DNA from: a bacterium | GTDB lineage: Bacteria > Zhuqueibacterota > Zhuqueibacteria > Residuimicrobiales > Krinioviventaceae | DNA length: 50,602 nt | Reading direction: 5' to 3' | NCBI GenBank assembly: GCA_029561455.1 | Contig: JAKQIY010000053.1 | Location: 1 to 50,602, forward strand | Part shown: in pieces, positions 21,587-43,177 of the stretch | How the letters are laid out: each line of letters begins with the position of its first letter | Numbering within the stretch: the stretch's first letter is position 1 | Notes under the pieces: model-generated | Databases searched by the model: none | What the model was told of the DNA's origin: nothing | The model's input: the letters and a program-made list of their open reading frames with translations, nothing else | Position numbers and translations under genes: made by a program

Positions 21587-24295
21587 TTATGAATTTTTTA
21601 ACATATCTCTTAATACTGTCTGTAATATCCCGCCATTTTGATAATACGTGATCTCAACCGGGGTATCGAGCCGGGCAATGACAGTTATGCGCCGGCTGCC
21701 GCCGTTTTCGCCGGTCACTGTTATTTCCAGGTTTTGCTGCGGAACCAGGTTGCCCGGAATGTTTATTGTATATAATTCGCGCCCGGTCAACCCCAGAGAG
21801 GCGGCGGAATCGCCCGGCTTGAATTGCAGCGCCAAAATACCCATACCTATTAAATTACTGCGATGGATGCGTTCAAAGCTTTCGGCCAACACGGCTTTCA
21901 CTCCCAGCAACATAGTGCCTTTGGCTGCCCAGTCCCGCGAACTGCCGGTGCCGTATTCCTTGCCGGCAATGACCAGCAGCTTCACTTTTTCTTCTTTATA
22001 CCGCATGGCGGCATCGTATATCCATTCCTGTTTGCCATCCGGGAAATGGAGCGTTACACCGCCTTCGGTTCCGGGAACCAGCAGGTTTTTCAGACGAATG
22101 TTGGCGAATGTGCCGCGTACCATTACCCGGTCGTTACCGCGCCGGGCGCCATAGGAATTAAAGTCTTGCGGTTGCACGCCCAGCGATAGCAGGTAGTGCG
22201 CAGCGGGGCTGTTTTTCGCAATCGAGCCAGCCGGGGAAATGTGATCGGTAGTAACGGAATCACCCAGTAAGGCCAGTACCCGCGCATTGTTAATGGAGCC
22301 TGCCGGCGCGGCTTGTTTTTGCATATCCATAAAAAACGGCGGTTCCTGGATATAAGTGGAATCGGCCCGCCAGTTAAACATTTCCGATTCGGTGATGGGA
22401 ATGTTGTTCCATGCCGGATTGAACGAGTTCATGTCGGCATACATTTTTGTGAATATTTCCGGGGCGGCCGATTTTTCCACCATGGCGGCAATTTCCCGGT
22501 TGGAAGGCCAGATATCTTTTAAAAATACCGCTTTGCCATCTTTACCTGTACCCAGGGGTTCGGCGGAAAAATCAATATCGATCCTGCCGGCCAGGGCATA
22601 GGCAACCACCAGCGGCGGCGATGCTAAATAGTTGGCGCGGGTATGCGGATTGACCCGGCCTTCGAAATTCCGGTTACCGCTCAACACAGCGGTAACGACC
22701 AGGTTTTCTTTATCGATTGCCTCGGCGACCGCGTCCGGCAGCGGCCCGCTGTTGCCGATGCAACTGGCGCAGCCGTAACCGATGGTCTGAAATCCAAGTT
22801 GATCGAGATACTGCGCCAAACCGGTTGCCTGCAAATATTCCGTCACCACCCGCGAACCCGGGGCCAGACTGGTTTTGACATAGCCCGGTACGGTCAGCCC
22901 TGCATTAACCGCTTTTTGGGCTAGCAATCCCGCGCCCAGTATGACCGAGGGATTGCTGGTATTGGTGCAACTGGTTATCGACGCAATGACCACCGACCCG
23001 TGAGCGAGCCGGTGAGCGCCATTAAAATTAACTGTAGCCTGTTTATGCAGTGATTCAACCGGTAAATTGTAACCCCGTTTGTCAACCGGGGCTGTCAGTG
23101 CGGCATGAAACTCGGTTTTAACCTGGCCAAGGGGAATGCGATCCTGGGGACGCTTGGGCCCGGCCACACTGGCCTGGACTGTGGCGAGATCGAGATGCAG
23201 GGTGTCTGTATAGTAACATTCCGGGGAATCCGCGCTGCGGAACAATCCCTGGGTTTTCATATAGCGTTCCACCAACGCCACCAGTTCCGGCGATCGCCCG
23301 GTGCGGAGCATAAAATTCAGGCTTTCCTGATCCATCGGGAAAAAGCCCATGGTTGCGCCATATTCCGGCGCCATGTTGGCGATGGTCGCCCGATCCGGCA
23401 GACTCATACCGGCGACGCCCGAACCATAAAATTCAACAAATTTACCGACCACGCCTTTTTGCCGCAGCATTTGTACAATTATCAGGGTTATATCCGTAGC
23501 GGTAACACCTTCCGGGCATTCGCCGCTCAATTCAAATCCTACAACGCGGGGGGCAAGCATGTACAGGGGTTGACCAAGCATAACCGCTTCCGCTTCTATT
23601 CCGCCAACACCCCAGCCGACTATTCCCAACCCGTTGATCATGGTCGTATGCGAATCGGTGCCTACCAGGCTGTCCGGGTATATAACCTGTTCGCCATTAA
23701 CAATTTCAGTAAATATACCCCTGGCCAGGTATTCAAGGTTAACCTGGTGAATTATGCCCACGCCGGGCGGGATAACGCCAAATTTTTTAAATGCATTTTG
23801 TCCCCATTTAAGGAATTCATATCTTTCCCGGTTGCGTTGAAATTCCATTTGCATATTTATAGCCAGTGACTGCGGGGAACCATAGCTGTCGGTTTGCACG
23901 GAATGATCGATGACCAGGTCGCAGGGGATGAGCGGTTCGATGCGGCGCGGATCGCCACCCAACCTTTGCATGGCGGAACGCATGGCGGCCAGATCGACCA
24001 TAGCCGGCACGCCGGTGAAATCCTGTAAAATAACCCGGGCCGGTTTAAACGGCACTTCGATATTCATTTCTTTGGCGGCATCCCAGGCAGCCAGGCGTAA
24101 AACATCGTCGCTCATCACTTCAATGTTGTTGCAGTTTCGCAGAGATGCTTCCAGTAATATCCTGATACTGTATGGTAATTTATCCAGACCGGAAAAGCCA
24201 TGCTTTGCCAGTTTTTCCAACTGAAAGATATATACAGTTCCTGTCGGGGTGGAAATTTTTGTTTTGGTATTGAATAGATCTTGATAACCGTTCAT
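21587..24295 (-). CDS. acnA: Aconitate hydratase AcnA
   Basis: 902 residues, the length of the AcnA/IRP branch. The N-terminal half has [27 protein letters not shown] and [23 protein letters not shown]. The [4Fe-4S] cysteines lie in [10 protein letters not shown] and [10 protein letters not shown]. The C-terminal swivel domain has [13 protein letters not shown] and [15 protein letters not shown]. It interconverts citrate and isocitrate in the cytoplasm. GGAG precedes the ATG by about 5 bases. It is followed at 12 bases by the Ldh2-type dehydrogenase and preceded at 23 bases by lutC. Together with the Re-citrate-synthase-like and isocitrate dehydrogenase genes farther along, it supplies the oxidative branch to 2-oxoglutarate. 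Confidence 0.97.
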
Positions 24296-24318: not shown

Positions 24319-25002
24319 TTATTCTTCAAGCCAGTATACGACCAGCCGGCGGGGGCCATGAGCGCCAAGAATGATGATCTTTTCTATATCTGCAGTCCGG
24401 CTGGGGCCGGTGATTAATAGCATGTTTTTAGCGCTCTCTGTGGGGATGAGTGTAAACAAATCAAACAGGTTGGCGATCAGTTGTTCGGGTTTGACGATGA
24501 CATAGATGCAATCAGGCAAAAAATGCGGAAACATGCTGTCGGAGTCGGCCTGCAACACCGCCAGGGAGGCGGTATCGGCAATGGCATGATCCACACCCAC
24601 CAGGGCGGCGTCGGCAAAGGCGAGCCTGGTTTTTCGCGCATCAGCTTCCAGTTCCGTTGCCCTGATGTAATTAATAGCAGAGTATTCGGTTTGCAGTTGC
24701 CTGGCCGCGCTAGCCGTATTCTTATGGTCAGTGAGGATCAGGGTGCGATACTGCTTGTTCTGCAAGTCTTTACTTATATGAGCGACTAATTCCCCCGTTG
24801 ATTTGACCGGAACAAATTCACCGGAGACGGCCAGCAATTCTTTTTCAAACTGATTGCGCAAACCCTTGCGGTCAGCCGGGGTGATCGCTTTGAGACTCTC
24901 CTGTATCAGGTTTTCCGTTTCGGCTGGAGATTCCGGCAAGTGGGAGGGATTTTTCACTGCTTTTTTTACGGCGTTTAAAATTGTTTCACGACTGGAATTC
25001 AT
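24319..25002 (-). CDS. lutC: LUD-domain protein LutC (L-lactate oxidation subunit)
   Basis: 227 residues with the LUD fold. Typical elements are TASLAVLQADSDS (usually DTGTL/ASxxG), FPHFLPDCIYVIVKPEQL and the C-terminal LITGPSRTADIEKIIILGAHGPRRLVVYWLEE, close to the LutC/YkgG ending. With LutA and LutB, LutC forms an iron-sulfur L-lactate dehydrogenase complex feeding electrons to the respiratory chain or a carrier. AAGGAA lies about 5-8 bases upstream of the ATG, inside the 9-base gap after the xylanase gene. The lutA and lutB genes are about 7 kb upstream on the same strand. Confidence 0.88.
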   Translation of the reverse strand: MNSSRETILNAVKKAVKNPSHLPESPAETENLIQESLKAITPADRKGLRNQFEKELLAVSGEFVPVKSTGELVAHISKDLQNKQYRTLILTDHKNTASAARQLQTEYSAINYIRATELEADARKTRLAFADAALVGVDHAIADTASLAVLQADSDSMFPHFLPDCIYVIVKPEQLIANLFDLFTLIPTESAKNMLLITGPSRTADIEKIIILGAHGPRRLVVYWLEE

Positions 25003-25011
25003 ACCATTTCC

Positions 25012-27189: not shown

Positions 27190-27229
27190 ATAGAGTCCTA
27201 ATTTATAAATTTTACTTGAAATTTAATAT

Positions 27230-27263
27230 AAATAAAACTGGTATGAAATTGCAAGTTTTATTT
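27230..27263 (-). terminator. AT-rich hairpin after the SGNH gene
   Basis: Perfect 10-bp arms AAATAAAACT and AGTTTTATTT with a 14-base loop, between the stop of the SGNH gene (27313) and the xylanase start (27189). The stem is AT-rich with a weak T-run, so it may be a weak terminator or a processing site. Confidence 0.4.
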
Positions 27264-27312
27264 GAACATTAGCTGTAAAATTTCCCGGGCACAAGTTGCA
27301 AATAACGTAACG

Positions 27313-29241
27313 TTAGTTACTGGCTGTTTGAGCCTGCCTGAAATCGTCCAGTTCCTCTAAAACAGAGGCGGGGGCAATTTTATACAATTGAGTGCGTATT
27401 GCGTCTCCCTTTTCCATTTTCATGGATTTATAATAGGCACGGCACAGGTTGTATAGTAATTGTTCGTCGGTGGGCAAGGTGAGACGGGCTTTTTCAAGGT
27501 TTGTTATACCTTCGCCGGTACTGTTCAATGCCAGTTGTATTTGTCCCAACCATTTGTATATAAAACCTGAATCATTATAACGCAGCGCCTCTGTTAACAT
27601 AGCCTCGGCGCGTTCATATTGCCCGCTGTTGAGCAGCAATTCCAGGTAAGGTTCATAAAACAGGTCGAGATATGGAACAATATAAACCAGGGCTTTATAT
27701 TCCGCCAGGGCTTTATCCGTTTCGCCCTGTTGTTTGTACCAGTTTGCCATTTCCAGATGTCCCAGTTCCAAAGTGGATTCGCCGGTTTGCATGATGCGCA
27801 GGGCAATGGAATCCTGTTTGCCGGCGGGGGTATACTGCGCCAGGGCTACATTAGGCCCGCCGCTAGTGAACGGCCAACTGCCCTTGAGCTGCACTACCGA
27901 TAATGCGGCATAAATACTGTCCAGGGCAGTATAGCCCCAGTTCGCGCGATAGAATGAAGCAGGTTTGATATTGGTAGCCGGCCACTCTTGCGCAATAAAA
28001 TTTTCACGCCGCATGACCTGGAAAAAAGCATCGGCCATTAAAAAATAACCGGCGATGTTGGGATGAAGGTGTTCATGAATGAGCGTATTGCCGATCAATC
28101 CGTTTGGCGACGCTTCCGTAAAGACCGCCTGCATGGGCACAACCGACGCCCCGAAAGCCGCAGCAGTGTTGCGGATGATGTCGTTAAACTCTTCGGTTGC
28201 GCGAAAGCGCAGGGCGTCCAGGTCTTTGGCGCGATAATAGGCGGCCCTGGCTTTATCATATTGCCGCTCTTGCTCCAGCTTTTGCGCCCGGGTAAACACC
28301 GTCTCTGCCGGGGGCAGGGTATCGCTTGCTGTGGAAGTGAAGGGTAGTTGGTCACTGATATTGCTGACCAGTTCACTGATCAGTACAGGAACGCCTGCAG
28401 CCCGGGCTTTAGCCAGAATTTCACCCAGGTTGGCCTGGAATTGCTTTTTCCCTGCTTTATAAAGGGGGCTATCCAGGGGTATCGATTTGTTCCCCACCAT
28501 GCGCGACATGACGGTTTTCATCGGATCCTGCATTCTTGCGGTTGTGGATACACCGTGTAAACTCATGTATATTCGGCCGGTAAGATTGCGTATTAATACA
28601 AAAGTTTTATAATTTTTGAGTTTTAAAAAGAGTTTAACCACCGGCCGGATTCGCCCCAATGATTCCATCGAGGCTACACCCAGGGCGCCATAGAATTCAT
28701 TATGTCCGGCGTAGATCAGCAGCGCATCCGGCTTTTGGGCGAGGATTTCATCCATAAAATCGAGCAAAGTATAGCTGTTGATAGCAGTAAGGGCGGTGTT
28801 GACGACTTCAATGTGCCGATCCGGAAAGGTATCTGCCAGGCGTTTACCTAAAATACGGGGAAAAGTGATATTGTTCCCATAAGGAAAACCGGCGGTTGTA
28901 GAACCGCCCAGTACAAAGATCCGGTAACCATTGGCCGGTTTTTCTTTCAGAAACAAATCTTTACGCGGCGAAGGATTGAAATTCTCCCGATAGAAATAAC
29001 GTTTCCCTACCTCGGTATTGATCCCGTAAAAGCGTGATGTCGCATCCGGAATGGATATGAATAACCGGGTATCGATACCGTAATGAAAAACCTGCAAACC
29101 GGTTTCCAGCAGCGCAAAAAATAAAATGGGTACCAGCAGCATAAAAATTGTAAAGGCGCGTTTTTTAGCGGCAGATAGCGGAGCCGTCGCTTTTTCTGCA
29201 GGCCTCTTTTGTATTGTGGACCTGGTTTTTTTTGTTTTCAT
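27313..29241 (-). CDS. Membrane-anchored SGNH/GDSL-like hydrolase with C-terminal TPRs
   Basis: 642 residues from ATG 29241; a TTG start 8 codons earlier is possible. A Lys-rich N-terminus precedes a membrane helix (about 31-50), so the body is probably periplasmic. The SGNH core has block I FVLGGSTTAGFPYG with the nucleophile Ser near 114, IYAGHNEFYG (block III Asn near 181) and a late HEHLHPNIAGY that can carry the catalytic His. The last 170 residues form about four TPR-like helical pairs. SGNH enzymes of this kind often remove or add acetyl groups on glycans, and xylan is acetylated, so deacetylation of xylan is plausible beside the GH10 gene. The substrate is inferred. Confidence 0.8.
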   Translation of the reverse strand: MKTKKTRSTIQKRPAEKATAPLSAAKKRAFTIFMLLVPILFFALLETGLQVFHYGIDTRLFISIPDATSRFYGINTEVGKRYFYRENFNPSPRKDLFLKEKPANGYRIFVLGGSTTAGFPYGNNITFPRILGKRLADTFPDRHIEVVNTALTAINSYTLLDFMDEILAQKPDALLIYAGHNEFYGALGVASMESLGRIRPVVKLFLKLKNYKTFVLIRNLTGRIYMSLHGVSTTARMQDPMKTVMSRMVGNKSIPLDSPLYKAGKKQFQANLGEILAKARAAGVPVLISELVSNISDQLPFTSTASDTLPPAETVFTRAQKLEQERQYDKARAAYYRAKDLDALRFRATEEFNDIIRNTAAAFGASVVPMQAVFTEASPNGLIGNTLIHEHLHPNIAGYFLMADAFFQVMRRENFIAQEWPATNIKPASFYRANWGYTALDSIYAALSVVQLKGSWPFTSGGPNVALAQYTPAGKQDSIALRIMQTGESTLELGHLEMANWYKQQGETDKALAEYKALVYIVPYLDLFYEPYLELLLNSGQYERAEAMLTEALRYNDSGFIYKWLGQIQLALNSTGEGITNLEKARLTLPTDEQLLYNLCRAYYKSMKMEKGDAIRTQLYKIAPASVLEELDDFRQAQTASN

Positions 29242-29288
29242 CGTATGAGATTCAGGTGATGTCAATGTTTAGTTGCTTATACAAATAT

Positions 29289-29322
29289 GCCCGGGGTGAA
29301 GCTGGAACTATCACGCCCGGGC
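29289..29322. other. GC-rich hairpin between the 939-aa gene and the SGNH gene
   Basis: GCCCGGGGTGA and TCACGCCCGGGC form an 11-bp stem with one bulge and an 11-base loop in the 113-bp gap. No T-run follows, so an mRNA-stability element or partial terminator setting different levels of the two products is more likely than a full stop. Confidence 0.5.
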
Positions 29323-29354
29323 AAGTTATTACTAAAAATGTTAAAGAAAAAGGA

Positions 29355-32174
29355 TTACTTGATCAATAACATTTTTTGGGTTTTTACATTGTTGTTGCTT
29401 TCCAGTTTGTAGAAATAAACACCACTGGCCAGTTCATGGGCGTCAAACGAAACATCATAGCTGCCGGCGGGTTTTACTTCATTCACCAGGGTAGAAACTT
29501 CTCTACCCAGAATGTCGAATACTGTCAAACGAACCATGCCGTTCTTTACAATCGAGAAAGAAATGGTCGTGGTCGGGTTGAACGGGTTCGGGTAATTCTG
29601 CAATAACTTGAATTCGGAAGCAACCATAGTCGGGTTTTCTTTAACGCTGACTTTGGTAATGCCGGCTGGATTGTACCATACCTCGGCGCTGTCATTGGCA
29701 ACACCGGTAATGGCGTTTACAGGAATGAGTTTCAATTTGTTATCCGGCATGAATTCTACAGAACCGAGCATCTGCGGATTGTTCCATACTTTATCATCCA
29801 TAACGGCCGACCATTGAATGGTTGCCTGACGTGCCAGGGCATCACTGTCATGATTCATAAAAGACATACCGAATACATTGCCAACTGCCGGAACGATTGG
29901 ACCGCGGGCAGCAGTACCGGTAGTTACAATATCAGTCCATTTAACGCGCATTTCGAGGACATAACCATTATCGGTTTTTGCGCGGGCAAAATCACCAGCT
30001 GCGCGATTGGAAACGCCGGCGTAATATTTTGGATCAACATCTGAACTGTCCAAAGCAGATAGACTGACATCAACAATACCTGCCGTTGGTGCCAGGCTTG
30101 GATCCGGATCGAATTTAATTTCGATTTTATCTACCTGGTAATTGGTAGCATTATTAAGGGCTACACTGTCATCGGCAACTTCTTCATAAACATACATATA
30201 AGTTGAATCCCATGCTAACCATACCAACGCGGAACAGTCTTTATCATCATCCGGAGCGCCATTAGCATTAAAAGCCCGCGACGGCATATAGAAATGACCG
30301 TCATCCGGGGTTTTCAGGGTCATATACAAAAAGTCTTTTTTAGCATCCATAACCACCGGCGGGAAAGAACCGTCATACGGCACGGTGTTGGTTACACCGG
30401 TCATATTATTGGTGGGAATGAACTGTAATTTATTATCAGCCAGGAATTTTACTGTACCCAGGAATTTCGGGGTTTTCCAGGCATCGTCATTCAGCACTGC
30501 GCCCCAGGCAACAGTAGCATCGCGCTCAATATTGCCGTCATTGTCATGATTTTGCAGGGTGGCGCCAAATACGTTACCAACAGCCGGGGTGATGATTTCT
30601 GTGCCAAGTTTAATAGCTTGCCATTTAATGGCAAATTCCAGAACATAGCCGGTAGCCGTGGTTTTACGAGCGAATTGTTTCAGAGTGTCGGCAATATTAC
30701 TGAGATCGTCGACCTTTGCTGTGGTCGGCAGACCGTCTTCCAGACCGAGGGCGCACAAACGGGTTTCAAAATTGCTGGTTTTAGTGCTGTCATCGGGAAC
30801 CGGATCGATCTTGAGTTCGATTTCATCATTTTTCCAGGGCTGGTTGCCGGCCATGGAGACTGTATCGTCGGTCACTTCTTCATAAACGTAGAACCATTCT
30901 TCATCCCATGCTCCCCACAATTTAACGGAGAGGTCTGCATCGTTATCGGCAATTTTGCCCAGGGCGCCTTGTGTAAAGGTGAACCAGCGCATTTGCAGAT
31001 AACCGTCATCCGGACCGGTTAAAGCTTTATAGAAATCGTCTTTAACGCCATCAACGACCACAACAGTTTCCTGTTTCGGATAGACGCGAATGTTATCTAC
31101 ATATAAGGTTCCTGTATAATCGCCTTTGGGATTGATTTCAATACCGGCATAAATTGTAGCCCATGGGAAGAATGTTGCCGGATTTAATGTATTTTGTTGT
31201 TTTACTTCAAATACCAGGGTATTCCAGGCGTCTCTTTTAATTAGAGTAGAATTGTCGCCGCCAAAGCCGGTTCTTTCAACTGGGGCATAAATTGTCCGTT
31301 CCCAGCCCCAGTGGGTTTTATCCATCTGGAAGAACTGCACAAAACCGCTATCCGGGAAATCTGCGGGGAAGAATACATCGGCTGCTAACAGGTATTCGCC
31401 AACTGTGGAATCTGTCCAGGTGTATTTAACATCCGGGAAGATCGCGCCATCGGTGCCGGCTGCCAGGGTAATGGAATCTACAGCAACGTCAACTTGCAGG
31501 ACACCGCCGGCTACCGGGTCAACCGCATGCGATACGGTGATATATTTATTCCAGGTACCGAAACCGGTGCTGTTTTCACTTAAATCCCACAATACTTTGC
31601 CGCCCTGCCACAGGGTAACATTGTCGATCAATACTGAACCCGTCCAGGGTTCAAAAATCTGTATTTCTACACCGGTTTGTACGGTTGTCGGAACGAAATT
31701 AACCGGATCAACCTGGTTTTCACGCGCTAATTCAAATGTGAATGTATTCCAGCCGCCGATGACCATTTCGCGGCCGCCGGCCTGGTAGGACGGGGAATAT
31801 AAGGTACGTTTCCAGTTCCAGTGAGTTCTGTCCATCATATAGAACTGCATAAAGGAACTATCCGGGAAATCGGCGGGAACGTAAACATCAACGGTTACGA
31901 ACTCGGGGCCTTCGCCGGGAGCTGTCCAGCCGAGGTTGATATTATCAACCCGAACAGCCGCTGTACCAAATGAATCGACAACGCAGGCAGCTTCCAGAAC
32001 ACCGCCAAATTCAACATGATTGGTCTGGGTTACGCTGGTAACAATAGAACCCCAGCCAATACCCCAACCACCGACGCCTTGTTCAAAATCGTAGATTACA
32101 TCAGCAATCTGGCCGAATGTAAAACTGGTGGCCAAAAATAACAGTGTGACAAAGGTAAATAGTACTTTTTTCAT
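29355..32174 (-). CDS. Secreted 939-residue protein: two jelly-roll-like modules, two CBM9/DOMON-like modules, sorting domain
   Basis: Residues 1-21 form a signal peptide. Two repeated modules follow (about 22-195 and 196-370). Each contains the near-identical block FPADFPDSxFxQFxxMDxTHWxWxRT, 169 residues apart, and ends in a VLIDNV/LYVDNI strand like carbohydrate-binding jelly rolls. Two further repeats (about 375-600 and 620-835) have the WDEEWFYVYEEVTDD...NDEIELKIDP pattern of CBM9/DOMON-like sugar-binding domains. A NYPNPFNPTTTISFSI sorting domain closes the protein. No catalytic domain is visible. It is probably a cell-surface glycan-binding protein serving the xylanase downstream. A GGGAGAG sequence supports the start. 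Confidence 0.8.
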   Translation of the reverse strand: MKKVLFTFVTLLFLATSFTFGQIADVIYDFEQGVGGWGIGWGSIVTSVTQTNHVEFGGVLEAACVVDSFGTAAVRVDNINLGWTAPGEGPEFVTVDVYVPADFPDSSFMQFYMMDRTHWNWKRTLYSPSYQAGGREMVIGGWNTFTFELARENQVDPVNFVPTTVQTGVEIQIFEPWTGSVLIDNVTLWQGGKVLWDLSENSTGFGTWNKYITVSHAVDPVAGGVLQVDVAVDSITLAAGTDGAIFPDVKYTWTDSTVGEYLLAADVFFPADFPDSGFVQFFQMDKTHWGWERTIYAPVERTGFGGDNSTLIKRDAWNTLVFEVKQQNTLNPATFFPWATIYAGIEINPKGDYTGTLYVDNIRVYPKQETVVVVDGVKDDFYKALTGPDDGYLQMRWFTFTQGALGKIADNDADLSVKLWGAWDEEWFYVYEEVTDDTVSMAGNQPWKNDEIELKIDPVPDDSTKTSNFETRLCALGLEDGLPTTAKVDDLSNIADTLKQFARKTTATGYVLEFAIKWQAIKLGTEIITPAVGNVFGATLQNHDNDGNIERDATVAWGAVLNDDAWKTPKFLGTVKFLADNKLQFIPTNNMTGVTNTVPYDGSFPPVVMDAKKDFLYMTLKTPDDGHFYMPSRAFNANGAPDDDKDCSALVWLAWDSTYMYVYEEVADDSVALNNATNYQVDKIEIKFDPDPSLAPTAGIVDVSLSALDSSDVDPKYYAGVSNRAAGDFARAKTDNGYVLEMRVKWTDIVTTGTAARGPIVPAVGNVFGMSFMNHDSDALARQATIQWSAVMDDKVWNNPQMLGSVEFMPDNKLKLIPVNAITGVANDSAEVWYNPAGITKVSVKENPTMVASEFKLLQNYPNPFNPTTTISFSIVKNGMVRLTVFDILGREVSTLVNEVKPAGSYDVSFDAHELASGVYFYKLESNNNVKTQKMLLIK

Positions 32175-32503
32175 CTCTTCTCTCCCAAAATGAATTTTGT
32201 TTTAAAACATGATTTTACCCTGTACTACAATTAATAAATACAGCTTGTTTCCCTTTTGCTTATCACCTCGCTTTCATAATTTGTTTGTCAGTTAACATGT
32301 TTGATACAGAAATCTTTATAATAGGAAATTTCTTTACTCTTCATTATTGGTAATAGTATTTAAAATGCTGAATACTGGAAAATTAATTATGATCTTTAAT
32401 GGTATTTAATTTTCAATTGAAAATGCCCGAAATACCGATATTATTATGTAAACAATTTCCTGATAATAATCAAGAATAAAATTTACCGGAAACCTGAATT
32501 GCT
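32175..32503. promoter_or_regulatory. Intergenic region with a 16-bp palindrome at 32409-32424
   Basis: This 329-bp AT-rich gap separates lutB from the secreted-protein gene downstream. It contains one perfect palindrome, ATTTTCAATTGAAAAT, about 235 bases before the secreted gene, and an imperfect inverted repeat near 32196-32216. A regulated promoter for the carbohydrate block is plausible. No -35/-10 pair stood out, and no gene is seen here. Confidence 0.4.
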
Positions 32504-33898
32504 TTATTTTTTTTGTAATTGCATAAAGCGTTTGCGGAATCCTTTGGGATCAAATAATCCCAGCGCCCGTTGCCGGAAATAGCCCGGCGCCGGGAAGGCC
32601 ATGCCTTTGGGCAACAAGAGCTGAAATTTTCCCGGAAACCAGGTGGCAAAACGGTACAAGCATGGATGTTTAGCCAGAAATGCCCAGGCTGCTATTCCGA
32701 ATTTTTCAATTTTCATGGAATAGCCCTTGTCCACAATCCGGTTTCGCAGTTTGAGCATGTGATGGGGAATATTGATACGCACCGGGCAATTTTCAAAACA
32801 GGCGCAGCACAGACTGGATGCAAACGGGGAATAGCGGCCTTCCTTTTCACCTAGATACTGGGGAATAAGCGCGGCTCCAATCGGCCCCATATACACCCAG
32901 CCGTAAGCATGACCGCCCACTTGCTGATAAACCGGGCAGATGTTCAAACAGGCGCCGCAGCGAATACAAAACAGCGTTTCCCGCAATTGCGGATCGGCCA
33001 GGATACGGGAACGTCCGTTATCGAGAATAACAACGTGCATCTCCTGCGGGCCTTCGTGCATTTTTGGGTATGGGGCGCCGCCGATTATGTTGACGTATAC
33101 AGAGGCTTTTTGTCCCGTTGCGCTGGGGGCCAGCAGTTTTAAAAAAGTGGCCAATTCTTTATAGCCGGGGACAATTTTTTCTATGCCCATAACGGCTATA
33201 TGCGTTTTCGGCAGGCCAACCGTTAACCGGGCATTGGCTTCGTTTTCGATGACGCACACAGCGCCGGCCTGAGCAACTGCAAAATTAACCCCCGAAATAC
33301 CGATATCGGCTGCCAGGAATTTGGCGCGTAGTTTTTCGCGGGCAATTGTCAGCAGTGCGGTCGGCTCTTCGGTGTAAGGTGCGCCCAGCTTTTCGTGAAA
33401 CAGTTTGCCAATATCCTGCCGGTTCAGATGCAGGGCCGGGGCGGTGAGATGCGAGGGGATTTCCCCTTTTAATTGCACTATATATTCGCCCAGGTCGGTT
33501 TCCAGGGTCTCCAGGCCGTTTTCTATCAAAAAATCATTCAGATGCAGTTCTTCGGTGGTGAGGGATTTGGATTTGACGATGGTTTTGGCCTGTTTATCGC
33601 GCGCTATTTGCAGAATGATATTCCGGGCTTGTTCCGCGTCTACCGCCCAATGCACATGTATGCCATTGGCAAGGCAATTTTTTTCAAATTGTTCCAGGTA
33701 CTGATCCAGGTTTTCCATGACCTGCTTTTTAATAGAGTGTGCGCGGTAACGCAAATTTTGCCAATAGGGAATTTGATCCTTTATTGATTTACTTTTACTT
33801 AAAGAAGTTTGCGTGGCTTTGTTAACCGCATTCCTAAGCCGTTCATCGTGCAGGGCATTATGGATATAATGTTTGGTGCTTTTCGGGGTCAGATTCAT
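32504..33898 (-). CDS. lutB: Lactate utilisation iron-sulfur protein LutB
   Basis: 464 residues. A LUD domain comes first (VKSKSLTTEE, FAVAQAGAVCVIENEAN, IGGAPYPKMHEGP), followed by two [4Fe-4S] motifs of the ferredoxin type, CIRCGACLNICP and CCACFENCP, and a helical C-terminal tail. This is the standard LutB/YkgF arrangement, in which the clusters pass electrons from L-lactate within the LutABC complex. It lies 17 bases after lutA and is followed by a 329-bp gap. The third gene, lutC, is not next to it as in B. subtilis but about 7 kb downstream. Confidence 0.94.
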   Translation of the reverse strand: MNLTPKSTKHYIHNALHDERLRNAVNKATQTSLSKSKSIKDQIPYWQNLRYRAHSIKKQVMENLDQYLEQFEKNCLANGIHVHWAVDAEQARNIILQIARDKQAKTIVKSKSLTTEELHLNDFLIENGLETLETDLGEYIVQLKGEIPSHLTAPALHLNRQDIGKLFHEKLGAPYTEEPTALLTIAREKLRAKFLAADIGISGVNFAVAQAGAVCVIENEANARLTVGLPKTHIAVMGIEKIVPGYKELATFLKLLAPSATGQKASVYVNIIGGAPYPKMHEGPQEMHVVILDNGRSRILADPQLRETLFCIRCGACLNICPVYQQVGGHAYGWVYMGPIGAALIPQYLGEKEGRYSPFASSLCCACFENCPVRINIPHHMLKLRNRIVDKGYSMKIEKFGIAAWAFLAKHPCLYRFATWFPGKFQLLLPKGMAFPAPGYFRQRALGLFDPKGFRKRFMQLQKK

Positions 33899-33915
33899 AG
33901 CGTACCTGAACAGAT

Positions 33916-34641
33916 TTATAAATGCAGACCGGCAGCCAGGATTTCGGCAATATGCAGAGCCCTGGCTTTGTAATTATGTTTACGCAGATAACCATCAATA
34001 TTCATTAAACAACTGGAATCCGTAGCTGTAACATATTCCGCACCGCTTTCTTCTATATATTTACATTTACGGGCGACCATGGCGGTGGAGAGTTCGGCAA
34101 ATTTATAGGAAAAAGTGCCGCCAAAGCCGCAGCAGGTATCCGACTTTTCCATTTCGACAAAATCAATATTCTTCAGGGAGCGCAGCAACTTGCGCGGTTG
34201 TTCGTGGATACCCAGTTCACGGAGGGAATGGCACGAATCGTGAAGTGTAACGCGATGGTTGAATTCGCCATCCAGTTGCTCTACACCGGCAACATCGACC
34301 AGGAATTCGGTAAATTCAAAGATCTTTTTGCTCAGGTCGGCGCGCGCCTGGTGTAGTTCGGGTCGAATATCGAGTTCATAATAAAAATTGCGCACCATGG
34401 CAGTACACGAACCGGATGGGGAGACAATGTATTCTTTATCGCTGAATAATTTTATAAAGCGCTCGGCGATGGGGATAATTTCTCTACGATAGCCGGAATT
34501 GAACGCCGGCTGGCCGCAGCAGGTTTGTCCATCTACATATTCAATTTCGGCGCCAATATATTGCAAAACCTTGACCATTGCCAGCGCCGAGTGGGGATAT
34601 AAATGTTCCGTTAAGCAGGGTATAAACAAAGCAACTTTCAT
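33916..34641 (-). CDS. lutA: Lactate utilisation protein LutA (CCG-domain)
   Basis: 241 residues from ATG 34641. An upstream extension of the frame is hydrophobic but lacks the family's start, and MKVALFIPCLTEHLYP is the usual LutA opening. Two CCG cysteine-rich domains are visible: VDGQTCCGQPAFNSGY and TLHDSCHSLRELG with SDTCCGFGGTFSYKF. In heterodisulfide-reductase-like proteins these bind iron-sulfur clusters. It works with LutB and LutC in L-lactate oxidation to pyruvate. First gene of the minus-strand series. Confidence 0.93.
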   Translation of the reverse strand: MKVALFIPCLTEHLYPHSALAMVKVLQYIGAEIEYVDGQTCCGQPAFNSGYRREIIPIAERFIKLFSDKEYIVSPSGSCTAMVRNFYYELDIRPELHQARADLSKKIFEFTEFLVDVAGVEQLDGEFNHRVTLHDSCHSLRELGIHEQPRKLLRSLKNIDFVEMEKSDTCCGFGGTFSYKFAELSTAMVARKCKYIEESGAEYVTATDSSCLMNIDGYLRKHNYKARALHIAEILAAGLHL

Positions 34642-35092
34642 TTTCCATCCGCGAGATTGAGCAATACCTATATCCTGAATGTACAGGGAAAAAAAGATAA
34701 TAAAATTATAATGGAAAAACAATAACTATTAAGTAATTTTAAAAAATAAATTATAATTCTCAAGTCAGTAACCGTGGCAGGCCAGCCCCTGGTAATGTGT
34801 TATTATCCAGGTGCATGCCGATGCAGTGAAAAAGGAACTCTCAAGTCATGTTGTAATATTATGGTTATATCAGTTTTGAAAATTATTGTTGCTTATTATT
34901 GGAAATTGATTATTTTTAAGAGGGTATATGATTATTTGTACAGATGCAGGGTTCACAATTTCAATTATTGAATAAATTCAGGCGCCAGGATATAAACAAT
35001 TTCCATAATTAATGAATCATATTCCTGTGTAGTAAATAAAGGGTATGCACTAGTATTTATGAATTGATCATCTCAATAACCTGGAGGTATAA
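34642..35092. other. Divergent intergenic region, 451 bp
   Basis: AT-rich DNA between lutA and the barrel-protein gene. The only repeat noticed is CTCAAGTCA, twice about 80 bases apart (34759 and 34839). A 65-codon frame at 34774 lacks a ribosome-binding site and looks non-coding. Promoters for both directions must lie here, but none was picked out. Confidence 0.4.
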
Positions 35093-36500: not shown

Positions 36501-37700
36501 TTATCCCTTAACATACCCTTCATAAATCTCATTCAGCCTGGGCGATTTAATGGTTGTCATAAGATAATCACAAAATTCGCGGCCGGTGGCGCCGTCATTA
36601 CGACCGGTGATGACCAGCTTTTTCTCAAACTGCTGACAAATGACCAGCGCTTTTTCCAGTTGTTGCGCTTTGGCCTGAAAACCGATATGCTGTAACATCA
36701 TCGCCGCGGCGCGGATGAGACTGGAGGGATCGGCGTATTGTCCCCGGCCCTCGGTAATCATGCGCGGGGCGGAGCCGTGAATGGCCTCGAACATAGCGTA
36801 TTGCATGCCGATATTGGCGCTGCCGGCGGTGCCCACGCCGCCCTGGAATTCGGCTGCTTCGTCGGTGATAATATCGCCATACAGGTTGGGCAGCACCACG
36901 ACTTTGAACTGGGTGCGGCGTTTGGGGTCGACCAGCTTGGCCGTCATAATGTCGATATACCAGCCTTCCCATTTCACCTGGGGATACTCTTTGCCGATGC
37001 GTTCTGCGGTTTCCAGGAACAGGCCGTCGGTGGTTTTAATGACATTCGCTTTGGTCACCACCGTAACATGGTTCAATCCGGTTTTGGCGGCAAAGTCGAA
37101 CGCCATGCGGATGATGCGTTCCGCGCCCTGTTTGGTGATCACTTTAAAGTCCATTGCCATATCTTCCGTTACCATTAATCCCTGGCTGCCAAGAATGTAC
37201 TCGCCTTCAGTGTTTTCGCGGAAAAACGTCCAGTCGATGCCTTCGCGGGGGATTTTAACCGGACGGATATTGGCGAACAAGTCCAGTTCGCGGCGCATAG
37301 CGACGTTGGCGCTTTCGATGTTGGGGTAGGGGCCGCCTTTTTCCGGGGTAGTGGTCGGTGCTTTAAGAATGACGTGGCATTTTTTCAGTTCCGCCAGCAC
37401 GTCATTGGGAATGGCTTGCATGTGTTTGACGCGGTTTTCAATGGTCAGGCCCTCGATGGTGCGGAACAGCAGTTTACCCTGGGCAATTTCTTCTTTGAGC
37501 AGCTCTTCCAGCAATCGCTGAGTTTCCTGCGAAATGAGCGGCCCAATGCCGTCGCCCCAGCAAAAACCAATGATAACCGGTTTCAGGGTATCGTAATTAA
37601 TCCAGTTCTGTGCAGCTTTCATCTTTTCAATCCGCGCCAGTTGTACCTGGATGAGTTTGGCAAGATGCTCCTGGGCTTTTTGGATATTTGGATTATTCAT
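36501..37700 (-). CDS. Isocitrate dehydrogenase (isocitrate/isopropylmalate family)
   Basis: 399 residues from ATG 37700, chosen because GGAG lies 6 bases upstream; the frame also contains a GTG two codons earlier. Isocitrate-type substrate residues are visible: the Ser and Asn of ESANVAMRRELDLFANIRP match E. coli IDH S113 and N115, followed by the Arg residues. FRENTEGEY, VTKANVIKTTDG, NLYGDIITDEAAEFQGG and HGSAPR follow as expected. It oxidises isocitrate to 2-oxoglutarate. The region after HGSAPR (ITEGRGQYADPSSL) does not clearly tell NAD from NADP, so the coenzyme is left open. It is the last of a minus-strand series that includes a citrate-synthase-like gene. Confidence 0.9.
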   Translation of the reverse strand: MNNPNIQKAQEHLAKLIQVQLARIEKMKAAQNWINYDTLKPVIIGFCWGDGIGPLISQETQRLLEELLKEEIAQGKLLFRTIEGLTIENRVKHMQAIPNDVLAELKKCHVILKAPTTTPEKGGPYPNIESANVAMRRELDLFANIRPVKIPREGIDWTFFRENTEGEYILGSQGLMVTEDMAMDFKVITKQGAERIIRMAFDFAAKTGLNHVTVVTKANVIKTTDGLFLETAERIGKEYPQVKWEGWYIDIMTAKLVDPKRRTQFKVVVLPNLYGDIITDEAAEFQGGVGTAGSANIGMQYAMFEAIHGSAPRMITEGRGQYADPSSLIRAAAMMLQHIGFQAKAQQLEKALVICQQFEKKLVITGRNDGATGREFCDYLMTTIKSPRLNEIYEGYVKG

Positions 37701-37852
37701 TAGCACTCCGGATAAAAATGAAAAATAATATGATATATAACCCGCCGAAACAGGTCAAATAAATTTCCCATTACCTGAATAGAGTTTTGACGGCAACTGT
37801 AATCCAGGGTGTTTTAATATAAAAAATAGCCGGGCACGGGTTTCAGAACATG

Positions 37853-38365
37853 TTATTGATCTACAGCTTCGTTCCCGGTTAAATCTTTACGCCCTTGTTT
37901 ATACTTGTAAAATCTTTCTTTAAGAGAATTGAGTTCGTTTTGCATAGCGATGGTTTTGTCCATATAATACTGGGCAAAATAATCTCTGGCCAGGCCAAAT
38001 ACCATATTACAATCGGTTAACAATTCAACCAGTTCTTTGGATACCGGGTAGTGAGTGACGAGAATATCCCAGAATTCTTCTTCGAAAATTCGGATGGCAT
38101 TTTGCACTTCTTCCAGCGAATACCCTTCGTTGGAACGCTGACGGGCCAGGTTCTCCATATAAATTTTCAAAGGGCGTTCATTATTCTCATGGATCACTTT
38201 GATGATGATATCCAGAAACTCTTCTTCTCTTTCCTGGTGCCGTTCAAAGTCGATCATTTCATAATGCGAAGATGATAACTTTTGCAAGCGATTACATATT
38301 TCGGTAATCAATTCGTCTTTATGCTTTTCGATTACCTCGTACAGCTTGTTATTGGCTACTGTCAT
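37853..38365 (-). CDS. All-helical protein resembling the RsbRD N-terminal domain
   Basis: 170 residues, almost entirely helical and acidic, without membrane segments or cysteine motifs. The pattern of EVIEKHKDELITEICNRLQ at the start, RPLKIYMENLARQRSNEGYSLEEVQNAIRIFEEEFWDIL in the middle and a C-terminal coiled coil resembles the four-helix RsbRD_N domain, which senses signals in stressosome or kinase proteins. Here it stands alone with no STAS or kinase domain. Its start overlaps the end of the GGCT-fusion gene by 17 bases, so the two are co-translated. It may regulate or partner the fusion enzyme. Family assignment is by eye. Confidence 0.6.
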   Translation of the reverse strand: MTVANNKLYEVIEKHKDELITEICNRLQKLSSSHYEMIDFERHQEREEEFLDIIIKVIHENNERPLKIYMENLARQRSNEGYSLEEVQNAIRIFEEEFWDILVTHYPVSKELVELLTDCNMVFGLARDYFAQYYMDKTIAMQNELNSLKERFYKYKQGRKDLTGNEAVDQ

Positions 38366-40268
38366 AATGTTTTTTGATTCTTTTGGTCCTTCGTTTTATT
38401 TGTTCTTCAATTCTGCCGATAATTCTTTGCGTATACCTGCCGTGTTCCTTGCCAAATACCGCCACTTCCTTATCCAGACCTTCTTCAATGGTAACCAGGA
38501 ACTGGTCGATACTCTGTTCCGGAATTGGGGCCGGTCTGCTTGCCCAGTTTATAAAGAATTGTTCCATTTCGATATATTGCTGCGGATCTGGCAAATTTGA
38601 GCAGCCTTTAAAAGGATAGGGGTTAAGACCCAGTTGGAACCCTTTTAAAGCCATGATCAGCGGCTGGTAATCGTATTCATAGAACAGCCTGGGGAACTGG
38701 TATTCCACCACCGGCGTCCAGACATCTTCTTCGGGATTTTTATGGTGTTTATTAAGACGGGAGATATTCAATCCCGATTCCTTGTGGAATATTTCCTGGT
38801 TGAAAATACGCATTTCCCGTAGTTTACCGTTTTCATCCTCGCGCAGATCGCCGCCCAGGGTCAACAGGCACAATATATAATCCGGGTTGGTCAATTTCTT
38901 GAACGGCGCATTGGCAGGAATTTCAATGCTGATATGCAGGCTATGCGGTTTAATGCCCATAAAGCGCACGGCAAGATCGGTAATACTGGATAATATCCAT
39001 GAATCTTCGGTAGCCGGTTTGGAGACATCCCCCAGTAACTTGTACCTGCCGAAAGCCAGTTCCAGAAAACCGCGGGTGCGGATATTGGGTGAAGTGAGGA
39101 ATTTATGATCGTCAATATGCGCGCCGAGCTTCCAGCCGCGCCGCATCAGGTCGAAATTGTAAAAATAGTAAAATGAATCGAAAACAGGGTCGGCCCCTTC
39201 TTTGGCGCCAATAGCGCGATAACCAATGTTGGAAAATTCCAATTCGGCGCCCAGGGGCAGCAGACCTATATGCCGGTTGCTGTTCACCCAGTCGACTATC
39301 TCTTCGGCTTTATCCCGTTCATATAACTCTTCGGCAATTAAAATGGCGGCGGCGGCATAATCAGTATATAGCAGTTCCGGGTTGAAACGGTCGATTTCGA
39401 GTTGTTTATGCGCCGATTTAACATGCGTGTTTTGATCCACCATCAGCTTGAGCGCCATCATCGCCGAAATAGTATGCATATAATAAGCGTCGCTCACTTT
39501 GACTTCACTGCGATAGTCGTTACGGAATTTTTCTTCCAACTGGTTAAAGATCATAAAGTTGGTCGCCAGTTTGATATAATTATCGGCGTATTCCATAGCT
39601 TTGGGGTCGCTTTTCAACCAGGTTAACCTGGGAATGCTGGCTTTTTCAATTTCATGTTTGATAATAAATGCCGGCAAGCCCGAATCCTGAAAATACTGGC
39701 GCAGAATGCTGTGCACTTCTTCGGATAATAATTCGCGGGTTACTTTGATGGGCAGAGCGCCGCGGTCATAGTTGATAAACAGGTCGGCTTTTTGTTCAAT
39801 ATAGCGGGTAACATTTTTTTCCACAAACTCTTCAATCCGATCCCGTTCCTCAAAGCCTTTGGTAAAATAGGGTTTTAAAGATTTAGGCTTGCCGATATAA
39901 ACCCAGGCTTCGATTATTTCTTCCTTGACCTGCACCTGGGCGATCTTGCGTTTATATAATTTCCCCTCGGATTCGTAATCATCGAGTTTTTTTATAATAT
40001 CCGGCGTGACATGATATAGCAGCCGACCTTCAATAGTAAATCCTTTCCATGGCAGGGCAAAGGAAAAACTGTTTTCCGGTTGTATACGCCTGTGATTAAG
40101 CAACAAACCGGTATCGTTGGGTAAAGTTACTCCGGTCAATAACTGTAAATAATAGTCATTATTTAGCGAACCATAAACAAACAGTTTGTCTATGGTTTGG
40201 CTATCAACCTTTTTATTCTTTTTCACCCGGTTCCGAAATGTGAAATTCTTGGTCAGATTAGTCGTCAT
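38349..40268 (-). CDS. Gamma-glutamylcyclotransferase-like domain fused to a large region with amidoligase-like motifs
   Basis: 639 residues. Residues about 27-165 form a GGCT/AIG2-like domain: LFVYGSL (29-35) is the substrate-binding loop, and LDDYESEGKLYKR (about 96-107) carries the catalytic Glu at 99. The following 470 residues are not a known GGCT extension. They contain GAELEF (340-345), like the GxExEF metal-binding motif of the glutamate-cysteine-ligase/amidoligase fold, then AHIDDHKF (383-390), FLELAFGRYK and HSLHISIEI (about 442-450). GGCT and amidoligase genes are known to be associated in other genomes. A cytoplasmic enzyme making or breaking gamma-glutamyl amide bonds is therefore plausible. 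It overlaps the citrate-synthase-like gene by 4 bases. The amidoligase reading is a hypothesis. Confidence 0.65.
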   Translation of the reverse strand: MTTNLTKNFTFRNRVKKNKKVDSQTIDKLFVYGSLNNDYYLQLLTGVTLPNDTGLLLNHRRIQPENSFSFALPWKGFTIEGRLLYHVTPDIIKKLDDYESEGKLYKRKIAQVQVKEEIIEAWVYIGKPKSLKPYFTKGFEERDRIEEFVEKNVTRYIEQKADLFINYDRGALPIKVTRELLSEEVHSILRQYFQDSGLPAFIIKHEIEKASIPRLTWLKSDPKAMEYADNYIKLATNFMIFNQLEEKFRNDYRSEVKVSDAYYMHTISAMMALKLMVDQNTHVKSAHKQLEIDRFNPELLYTDYAAAAILIAEELYERDKAEEIVDWVNSNRHIGLLPLGAELEFSNIGYRAIGAKEGADPVFDSFYYFYNFDLMRRGWKLGAHIDDHKFLTSPNIRTRGFLELAFGRYKLLGDVSKPATEDSWILSSITDLAVRFMGIKPHSLHISIEIPANAPFKKLTNPDYILCLLTLGGDLREDENGKLREMRIFNQEIFHKESGLNISRLNKHHKNPEEDVWTPVVEYQFPRLFYEYDYQPLIMALKGFQLGLNPYPFKGCSNLPDPQQYIEMEQFFINWASRPAPIPEQSIDQFLVTIEEGLDKEVAVFGKEHGRYTQRIIGRIEEQIKRRTKRIKKHYDSSQ

Positions 40269-41632
40269 TTCAATAAATCGGCAAAGTGCAACTGGAATTG
40301 CTGCATCATTTCTTCCGGCGAAATGGAGGTTATACGACCGTCTTTGTATTGCTGCTCAACCCACTCAAAGATTTTGGCAACCTTGGGGTTCCTTTTATCA
40401 ACCGGCGGAATGCCGCGTTTTTGTAATTCCTGGTTGATCCAGAACCCGACACCGGCGATGCCGGAGCGGTCGGTTAAATGTACGCCCAACGGACGGTTGA
40501 GGATTTTTGCCGTATCAAATATATTATAGATCTCTTCATTTTTGATCACACCGTCGGCGTGTATTCCAGCCATAGTGACATTGAACCGTTCGCCGACGAA
40601 CGGATAGTTATGGGGAATTACCGTGCCGATCTCGCGGAGATAATTGGCTATATCGGTTATAGCGGTCAAATCCATGCCGTTGGCGCTGCCGGTGAGTGAG
40701 GCATATTCCACAACCAGCGCTTCCATCGGCGAATTACCGGTACGCTCGCCGAAACCGAGAATCGTGCTGTTGGCGGCAGCTACCCCGGACAACCAGGCGG
40801 TAACTGAATTAATGTGCACCTTGTGAAAATCATTGTGGCCATGCCATTCCAGTAATTCTGAGGGTATGCCGAGTTCCCGCTGCAGATAATAGACCATTTT
40901 TTGAATAGAACGCGGTAATGCCGCATCAGGATAAGGCAGGCCATAGCCCATGGTATCACACAAGCGGATCTTGATCTTTAAACCGGTTTTAGCCGAAAAA
41001 TTCATCAATTCTTCGGCAAAGGGAACCACGGTTCCCCAAAAATCGGCGCGGGTAATATCTTCAAAATGGCAGCGAATGGCTTCCATGCCGGCATCGGCAG
41101 CGGCCTGAACAACTTCCATAAATGAATTGAGCACCTGGCGGCGGGTTTTTTTAAATTTCATAAAAATATGATAATCGGAGATCGATGTCAGCAGCCCGGT
41201 TTCCTTTATGCCAATGTTGCGCACCAGTTCAAAATCGCTAGCGTTGGCACGAATCCACGAAGTAACTTCAGGGAATTTATAACCCTTGTTCCTCACTTCT
41301 TCCAGTATTTCCCGGTCACTTTCAGAATAGATGAAAAATTCCGATTGGCGGATAACCCCATTAGGACCTGACAGCCGGCTGATCAAATCAAACAGTTTGG
41401 ATACCTGCTCAATTGAATAGGGAGGACGCGCTTGCTGACCGTCCCGGAAAGTTGTATCGGTAATCCATATTTCTTTGGCCGGACGGGCGTTAACCGTTAC
41501 TCCATCGAAAATTGTTTTGGGTATTTCATTATAGGGGAAAATTTCACGCATTAAATTTGGTTCCTCTACATCGAGCAGAGGATGCTTGACTGTCTTTTCA
41601 ATATTTTGCCAATTGCTGTTCAGGACGGACAT
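40265..41632 (-). CDS. Re-type citrate synthase homologue (isopropylmalate synthase-like)
   Basis: 455 residues from ATG 41632, set by GGAGGG 5 bases upstream; the frame also has an ATG four codons earlier that overlaps this site. It is an HMGL-like aldol-condensing TIM barrel: TDTTFRDGQQARPPY (metal-binding Asp and catalytic Arg), GVIRQSEFFIYS, RCHFEDITRAD, EWHGHNDFHKVHIN (metal-binding His pair) and GERTGNSPMEALV. The DGQQARPPY variant and length match Re-citrate synthases of anaerobes better than LeuA, which also carries a C-terminal regulatory domain missing here. It would condense acetyl-CoA and oxaloacetate. Aconitase and isocitrate dehydrogenase genes nearby support this, and no Si-type gltA is in the window. 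Homocitrate or isopropylmalate synthase remain possible. Confidence 0.75.
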   Translation of the reverse strand: MSVLNSNWQNIEKTVKHPLLDVEEPNLMREIFPYNEIPKTIFDGVTVNARPAKEIWITDTTFRDGQQARPPYSIEQVSKLFDLISRLSGPNGVIRQSEFFIYSESDREILEEVRNKGYKFPEVTSWIRANASDFELVRNIGIKETGLLTSISDYHIFMKFKKTRRQVLNSFMEVVQAAADAGMEAIRCHFEDITRADFWGTVVPFAEELMNFSAKTGLKIKIRLCDTMGYGLPYPDAALPRSIQKMVYYLQRELGIPSELLEWHGHNDFHKVHINSVTAWLSGVAAANSTILGFGERTGNSPMEALVVEYASLTGSANGMDLTAITDIANYLREIGTVIPHNYPFVGERFNVTMAGIHADGVIKNEEIYNIFDTAKILNRPLGVHLTDRSGIAGVGFWINQELQKRGIPPVDKRNPKVAKIFEWVEQQYKDGRITSISPEEMMQQFQLHFADLLK

Positions 41633-41757
41633 TTTTCCCTCCATATTATTTATGTTAAAAGATAAAAATTACCTTAATTATATACTCTCCCTCTTTTCGC
41701 CGGAACCTCAAGCAAAAATGTAATGATTTGGAGAATGATGAGGTTGTTGGTGAATTA

Positions 41758-42640: not shown

Positions 42641-43177
42641 ATGAACGGCAAAAAACTGATAATTTTATGTATGGGGTTGGTGCTGACAGGATATTTAAGC
42701 TGTTCCGGGCCGGCGCAATTACAAAATGGTTCCACCCCGGTTCAACAACAGCAGCATGAACAGCAAACCCGGTTAAATGAGGAGTTTGATCCCCTGACCC
42801 TGAATGATGAACCTGTATCAAGCTCCGAAACTATCGACGCTAAAGCAGAATTTTTTCAACTGTCCGAATTTATTACTACCGCGGTGCAGGATACCGCCGA
42901 CATTAATGAAATGGCGCCGGGATACCGGGTACAGTTGATTTCCACCCGCAGTGAATCGGAATCAAACATGGTCAAGCTAGACGCCATGTTAACCTTCCAA
43001 ACCCATGTGTACCGGATATTCGACGACCCTTATTACAAAATACGTATTGGTGATTGCCTGTCGCGTTTTGAAGCCAACGAGTTGCAGGAAACAGCAGTGA
43101 AAAAGGGATTCAGCGAAGCCTGGGTTGTGCAAACCAATGTCTATAGAAATGTCCGTCCGGTTGAGGAAAAACAATAG
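42641..43177 (+). CDS. SPOR-domain lipoprotein
   Basis: 178 residues. The N-terminus (KKLIILCMGLVLTGYLSC) is a lipoprotein signal with the acylated Cys near residue 21. A Gln-rich and acidic linker (about 22-85) leads to a SPOR domain at about 88-170: APGYRVQLISTRSESESN, VYRIFDDPYYKIRIGDC, EANELQETAVKKGFSEAWVV. SPOR domains bind denuded glycan strands at the division septum, so the protein should sit in the periplasm on the outer or inner membrane. It has its own terminator. Its neighbours are unrelated. Confidence 0.85.
   Translation: MNGKKLIILCMGLVLTGYLSCSGPAQLQNGSTPVQQQQHEQQTRLNEEFDPLTLNDEPVSSSETIDAKAEFFQLSEFITTAVQDTADINEMAPGYRVQLISTRSESESNMVKLDAMLTFQTHVYRIFDDPYYKIRIGDCLSRFEANELQETAVKKGFSEAWVVQTNVYRNVRPVEEKQ

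Follow-up and report, generated by a model that had tools for sequence, protein, structure and literature searches.

A gamma-glutamylcyclotransferase domain joined to a predicted GS/GCS-fold ligase-like domain beside a probable Re-citrate synthase in the KSB1 phylum

Genes for COOH-NH2 ligases or amidoligases adjoin genes for AIG2-family cyclotransferases in Firmicutes (PMC2588565), and a phage module groups genes for GGCT, ATP-grasp, amidoligase and COOH-NH2 ligase proteins (PMC11945000). The criteria published for the ligase superfamily are, by core strand, a GhExE or Ex[EH] motif on the first, acidic residues on the second and third, [HDQ]x[NH] on the fourth, an arginine on the fifth with another in the loop before it, and either Ex[RK]x2D or [QH]x4D on the sixth (PMC2588565). 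On the cyclotransferase side, the catalytic list of mouse GGACT/A2LD1 includes Y7, G8, T9, L10, E82, Y88 and Y115 (PMC2954230). In the literature that we searched, a scope outside which the main amidoligase survey lies, we found neither a ligase-cyclotransferase fusion nor a link of such a pair to citrate synthesis; the pairing of the two genes was known before, and the fusion and its citrate context are new in that literature.

The window analysed here, meaning the whole stretch of 50,602 nucleotides (contig JAKQIY010000053.1 of assembly GCA_029561455.1), comes from a bacterium of the phylum KSB1, also named Zhuqueibacterota (PMC11683472). Its reverse strand carries one gene that joins a cyclotransferase domain to a predicted ligase-like domain, and the first-pass annotation of the sequence had placed this gene at the right coordinates. 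The gene and the parts of its protein are the following, by window position and residue number:

38349..40268 (-): GGCT-ligase-like fusion gene, ATG start, 639 aa (ORF call, homologues in 14 genomes, dN/dS)
39861..40196 (-): GGCT/AIG2 (GGACT-type) domain, residues 25-136 (Pfam PF06094, structure matches)
40164..40175 (-): YGSL, residues 32-35, 5-oxoproline-binding loop
39972..39974 (-): Glu99, equivalent of the catalytic Glu82 of GGACT
39270..39860 (-): helical middle region, residues 137-333 (helices in the predicted model)
38352..39269 (-): predicted GS/GCS-fold carboxylate-amine ligase-like domain, residues 334-639 (model, VIA-align, Foldseek)

This is no chance reading frame, because 13 other genomes hold homologues of 52-80% identity to the query and because dN/dS is 0.05-0.15, a range that applies to all three parts of the protein in the two relative pairs for which dS had not reached saturation. 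The homologue set, window included, consists of 12 full-length sequences and two shortened at contig ends; the fusion recurs in 12 of 12 full-length members, which rules out an assembly or frame artefact as its origin. Between the two domains, 36 of the 197 columns of the middle region (137-333) are invariant among 12 sequences, and residues 136-214 have pLDDT <50 in the full-length model. A survey of the fusion and its neighbours, suggested at first pass and carried out here over 82 genomes of the phylum, found 14 carriers, all in one order, and a profile search of the same 82 genomes found no relatives beyond that order. A single-sequence search of public contigs matched one sister genome, on a contig labelled candidate division KSB1, and a search of plasmids, phages and viral contigs found no relatives.

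The N-terminal domain is the better-known half, and its description in the first-pass annotation as a GGCT-like domain with YGSL at 32-35 and a catalytic Glu99 is borne out by both profile and residues. Pfam GGACT (PF06094) matches residues 29-128 significantly (1.6e-14, 54.9 bits against a cut-off of 22.8) and is matched by 12 of the 14 homologues, the other two being those shortened by contig ends. Structure searches with residues 25-137 matched GGACT, GGCT and ChaC2 at Z 8-14.5. The residues of the mouse list given above correspond, in the same order, to Y32, G33, S34, L35, E99, Y105 and Y124, where the pairings of E82 with E99 and of Y88 with Y105 come from a phmmer alignment and that of Y115 with Y124 was made by position. 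All of these are invariant in the 12 homologues that reach YGSL except Y105, where 11 have Tyr and one has Phe. The GGACT domains that we found in the fusion's order all lie within fusion frames, and those in other clades of the phylum occupy short frames of about 120-270 aa.

For the C-terminal domain the structural model is the main guide. Modelled separately, residues 325-639 gave a pLDDT of 79.6 and a pTM of 0.84, with weaker values near strands 2-3 (about 48-58), and the model shows the layout by which the GS/GCS fold is recognised, six core strands of which the third and the sixth are each followed by helices. Among the 50 VIA-align matches listed for this model, all were GS/GCS-superfamily enzymes: PafA and Dop at Z 12.7 each, GshA at 12.4, YbdK at 12.1-12.4, GshF at 11.4, plant GCL at 11.0 and GS/GlnA at up to 9.6, the GCL-type group (GshA, GshF, plant GCL and GCS2/YbdK) spanning 10.3-12.4; here rows within one Z unit count as tied, and the leading Z does not assign the domain to a family within the fold. 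The top Foldseek match was PafA (1.6e-4), the full-length model likewise matched PafA, Dop, GshA and GlnA, and a viral fold library had no match to the domain at 0.001. The first reading had guessed a glutamate-cysteine-ligase/amidoligase-like fold from the motifs GAELEF (340-345), HIDDHKF (384-390) and LHISIEI (444-450) and had proposed structure prediction with a structural search as a check; the predicted fold is indeed related to GS/GCS, and the guess is supported by these matches together with GAELE as an invariant GhExE signature. The conserved active-site positions, with core strands placed by the secondary structure of the model and not by residue-level superposition, are listed below; each is invariant in 14 of 14 homologues at the residues named:

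39237..39251 (-): GAELE, residues 340-344, GhExE signature on core strand 1 (E342 and E344)
39105..39119 (-): H384-[IV]-D386-D387-H388, acidic residues on core strand 2 (low local model confidence)
39060..39062 (-): Glu403, acidic, core strand 3 (strand 401-406; low local model confidence)
38934..38936 (-): His445, core strand 4 (strand 443-449), HxS/T and not HxN/H
38751..38759 (-): R504-L-N506, core strand 5 (503-509), conserved Arg
38703..38705 (-): Glu522, core strand 6 (518-526), ExQ and not Ex[RK]

Strands 1, 2, 3 and 5 thus carry the published residues in full, with R504 as the strand-5 arginine and a further arginine, R487, invariant (14 of 14) in the loop before that strand. Strands 4 and 6 carry half of them: the position two residues after H445 is Ser or Thr instead of Asn or His, and the strand-6 context reads ExQx2R as against Ex[RK]x2D, lacking both the Arg/Lys and the Asp. 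The two glutamates of GAELEF have not been lost in any homologue, and H384, D386, D387 and H388 of HIDDHKF have likewise been kept. LHISIEI fared less evenly, as its H445 is invariant and its tail, SIEI, varies among the homologues, so the tail was ruled out as a motif.

Sequence comparison gave no family for this domain. Over residues 334-639 there was no match in Pfam, NCBIfam (both scanned with all 14 members) or, by profile search, the PDB sequences, and hhalign gave no link to single GshA, Dop or PafA sequences and no significant one to a GCS2 alignment. The first-pass annotation had suggested a profile search against the GCS2 and amidoligase families, and the result was negative at the level of sequence: Amidoligase_2 (PF12224) had no match in the 14 members at E<=1 and none in the window's own genome; GCS2 (PF04107) and Glu_cys_ligase (PF04262) matched neither the fusion protein nor anything else in the order's genomes; and Pup_ligase (PF03136) matched no fusion member and nothing over its cut-off in the order, the ground on which a pupylation system was rejected. 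Elsewhere in the phylum, a single genome has a PafA/Dop pair (PF03136, better copy E 8e-123; locus L091 on G022:C72, 1057-2589 and 2781-4412, both on the reverse strand). This pair, which was not found in the two other genomes of that genus, is either a real Pup system or contamination by an 11-kb contig.

The genes around the fusion are mostly those of the citrate branch, and we mapped the locus across relatives by tblastn. The neighbours on the same strand of the window are:

40265..41644 (-): HMGL-type synthase, probable Re-citrate synthase (PF00682 2.4e-30; adjacency; no PF00285 in 12 of 14 carriers)
37853..38365 (-): Rsbr_N/globin-like helical protein (sub-threshold Pfam Rsbr_N 9.4e-5, RsbRD_N)
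36501..37706 (-): isocitrate dehydrogenase-like protein, Iso_dh (PF00180 3.6e-66)
21587..24295 (-): aconitase AcnA (TIGR01341, 1334 bits)

The fusion gene overlaps the synthase gene upstream by 4 nt and the Rsbr_N-like gene downstream by 17 nt. Both overlaps had been seen at first pass and read as signs of a set operon, a reading that the conserved gene order across carrier genomes upholds. In the relatives, each of the 13 loci that span the junction has the HMGL-type synthase immediately upstream of the fusion; downstream, the Rsbr_N-like gene is present in most loci and was not found in three (L027-L029); isocitrate dehydrogenase comes next in every locus long enough to include it, except L024; and aconitase adjoins the cluster in L023, L024 and L028. 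Several relatives have LutABC-type lactate-utilisation genes downstream, or aconitase with a malate/sulfolactate-type dehydrogenase, or both. The upstream gene, called citrate-synthase-like in the first reading, encodes an HMGL-type enzyme, and the downstream one, called helical regulator-like there, encodes a helical protein that resembles Rsbr_N/RsbRD_N, with Pfam matches to these globin-like sensor families that stay below their cut-offs. On these similarities it is a possible sensor partner of the fusion.

Two further features of the window were observed. LutA/LutB and LutC-like genes lie between isocitrate dehydrogenase and aconitase (24319-34722), where they are interrupted by large secreted proteins with T9SS tails; the Lut genes of the sister genome are adjacent. 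On the other side of the cluster, a small lipoprotein-like ORF (42641-43177) runs divergently; its position is conserved in nearly all relatives, and yebC and ruvC come after it.

The upstream synthase, whose sequence carries the metal motifs DTTFRDGQQ and HGHND, probably supplies citrate by the Re route. Known Re-citrate synthases have been misannotated as homocitrate or isopropylmalate synthases, and confirmed ones may share merely about 28% identity with the first described (PMC12016533). We consider the neighbour a probable Re-citrate synthase because canonical citrate synthase (PF00285) is missing from 12 of the 14 carrier genomes, including that of the window, compared with 11 of 68 other genomes; the Fisher p for absence against presence of the fusion is 1e-6 in the phylum and 0.05 within the order, both uncorrected for kinship and completeness. 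Two carriers have a canonical citrate synthase as well, and the window genome has four further HMGL-family genes, two of them near each other on another contig. Six genomes of the order carry a paralogue (L054-L059) that shares 53-56% identity with the probable Re-citrate synthase, and no GGCT-ligase partner was seen beside it at those loci. In two fairly complete genomes of the same order that share a genus (G046 and G047), neither a canonical nor an HMGL-type synthase was found.

Our preferred explanation, which we hold with reasonable though not high confidence, is that the fusion combines, in a single chain for the citrate-to-glutamate branch, a gamma-glutamyl ligase driven by ATP with the cyclotransferase that goes with it. 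The analysis shows two predicted folds, conserved active-site positions, the operon and the co-occurrence with missing canonical citrate synthase, and the activities are inferred from these. With Mg-ATP, the C-terminal domain would activate a carboxylate group, probably that at the gamma position of glutamate, and join it to an amine; the N-terminal domain would cleave gamma-glutamyl amides to 5-oxoproline and the free amine. One half would then form the gamma-glutamyl amide that the other cleaves, with a small amine as the a priori likelier acceptor and a lysine of an operon enzyme as the other option. The fusion would serve the branch from citrate through 2-oxoglutarate to glutamate that the probable Re-citrate synthase begins and, since glutamate is the end product of this branch, it could be a signal to the fusion as well as a substrate of it. 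The fusion may accordingly be placed between citrate and glutamate as a make-and-break switch or as a tailoring enzyme. We regard ligase activity of the C-terminal domain as quite likely and glutamate as its probable donor, that the GGCT half acts on the product of the ligase is narrowly the better bet, and a regulatory role is a tentative suggestion that we lean against. Improbable in our view is the most specific version, a reversible switch in which plentiful glutamate leads to gamma-glutamate being put on a lysine of Re-citrate synthase or isocitrate dehydrogenase and later removed as 5-oxoproline; if true, it would parallel AceK or pupylation, with mono-gamma-glutamylation as the mark.

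The strongest competing explanation, though an unlikely one, is biosynthetic and not cyclic: the ligase would make a gamma-glutamyl small molecule, such as a thiol or a protected intermediate, for an anaerobic citrate pathway, and the GGCT domain would recycle or deprotect it. A precedent for a ligase with a deprotecting cyclotransferase is BtrJ and BtrG in butirosin synthesis. Searches of the order turned up no GshA and no GCS2, a gap that a different gamma-glutamyl ligase could close; this makes gamma-glutamyl-thiol synthesis a serious rival, and linked ligase and cyclotransferase genes have been interpreted in terms of peptide metabolite synthesis (PMC2588565). Against this, we recognised no further peptide-biosynthesis gene as conserved in the cluster, whose members are mostly citrate-branch enzymes.

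A paired ligase and cyclotransferase, as we propose, has to be weighed against several counterpoints, namely a C-terminal domain without sequence or profile similarity to known ligases of the fold, the variants on strands 4 and 6, the weak model around strands 2-3, the lesser strength of the citrate synthase co-occurrence within the order, the two carriers with a canonical citrate synthase, and a fold that includes the hydrolase Dop. The last of these leads to an alternative that we consider improbable, in which the C-terminal domain is a Dop-like hydrolase or deamidase and both halves break gamma-glutamyl bonds. The equal structural nearness of Dop and PafA and the departure of strand 6 from the ligase motif agree with it, but members of the fold are mostly ligases (PMC2588565), and the order has no Pup_ligase-family match over the cut-off. 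Least probable of all is a protein that lacks catalysis in one domain or in both and that regulates or scaffolds the synthase by sensing ATP or glutamate, perhaps together with the Rsbr_N-like protein, whose gene overlaps that of the fusion. The strand-4 and strand-6 motifs are altered, but the GGCT catalytic Glu and the main residues for metal and nucleotide do not vary even between divergent genera, so dead domains are not expected, and three loci keep the fusion where no Rsbr_N-like gene was found.

By its predicted fold, the C-terminal domain adds a family to the GS-fold carboxylate-amine ligase-like domains, one absent from the profile libraries searched. The pair is also tied to a probable enzyme of carbon entry into glutamate in bacteria without an ordinary citrate synthase and, if both halves act on one bond, it would offer a test case for a gamma-glutamyl make-and-break cycle in central metabolism.

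Compared with known systems, the most distant likeness is to AceK, the isocitrate dehydrogenase kinase/phosphatase, an analogy of opposing activities on one chain and of a link to isocitrate dehydrogenase; the folds and chemistry are unrelated, and regulation by the fusion is a proposal only. The N-terminal domain has the sequence family (PF06094), fold and catalytic residues of GGACT/A2LD1, whose known members are small proteins, unlike the fusion. With PafA and Dop, the C-terminal domain has in common the fold over about 240 residues, the GhExE motif and C-terminal helices past strand 6, but the fusion carries a GGCT domain and lacks both a PF03136 match and the [QH]x4D pattern of PafA on strand 6. 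GshA, GshF, plant GCL and GCS2/YbdK resemble it in fold, GhExE, strand-4 His and strand-6 Glu, whereas the C-terminal domain has no profile match to GshA or GCS2 and shows the HxS/T and ExQ variants. The Firmicutes and phage pairs come closest in arrangement, since there too the two activities are genetically paired, but each has its own gene there, in a peptide or cell-wall setting; in the present case the two, known until now as adjoining genes, are found also as a single polypeptide, one without an Amidoligase_2 profile match and encoded in a citrate/isocitrate operon.
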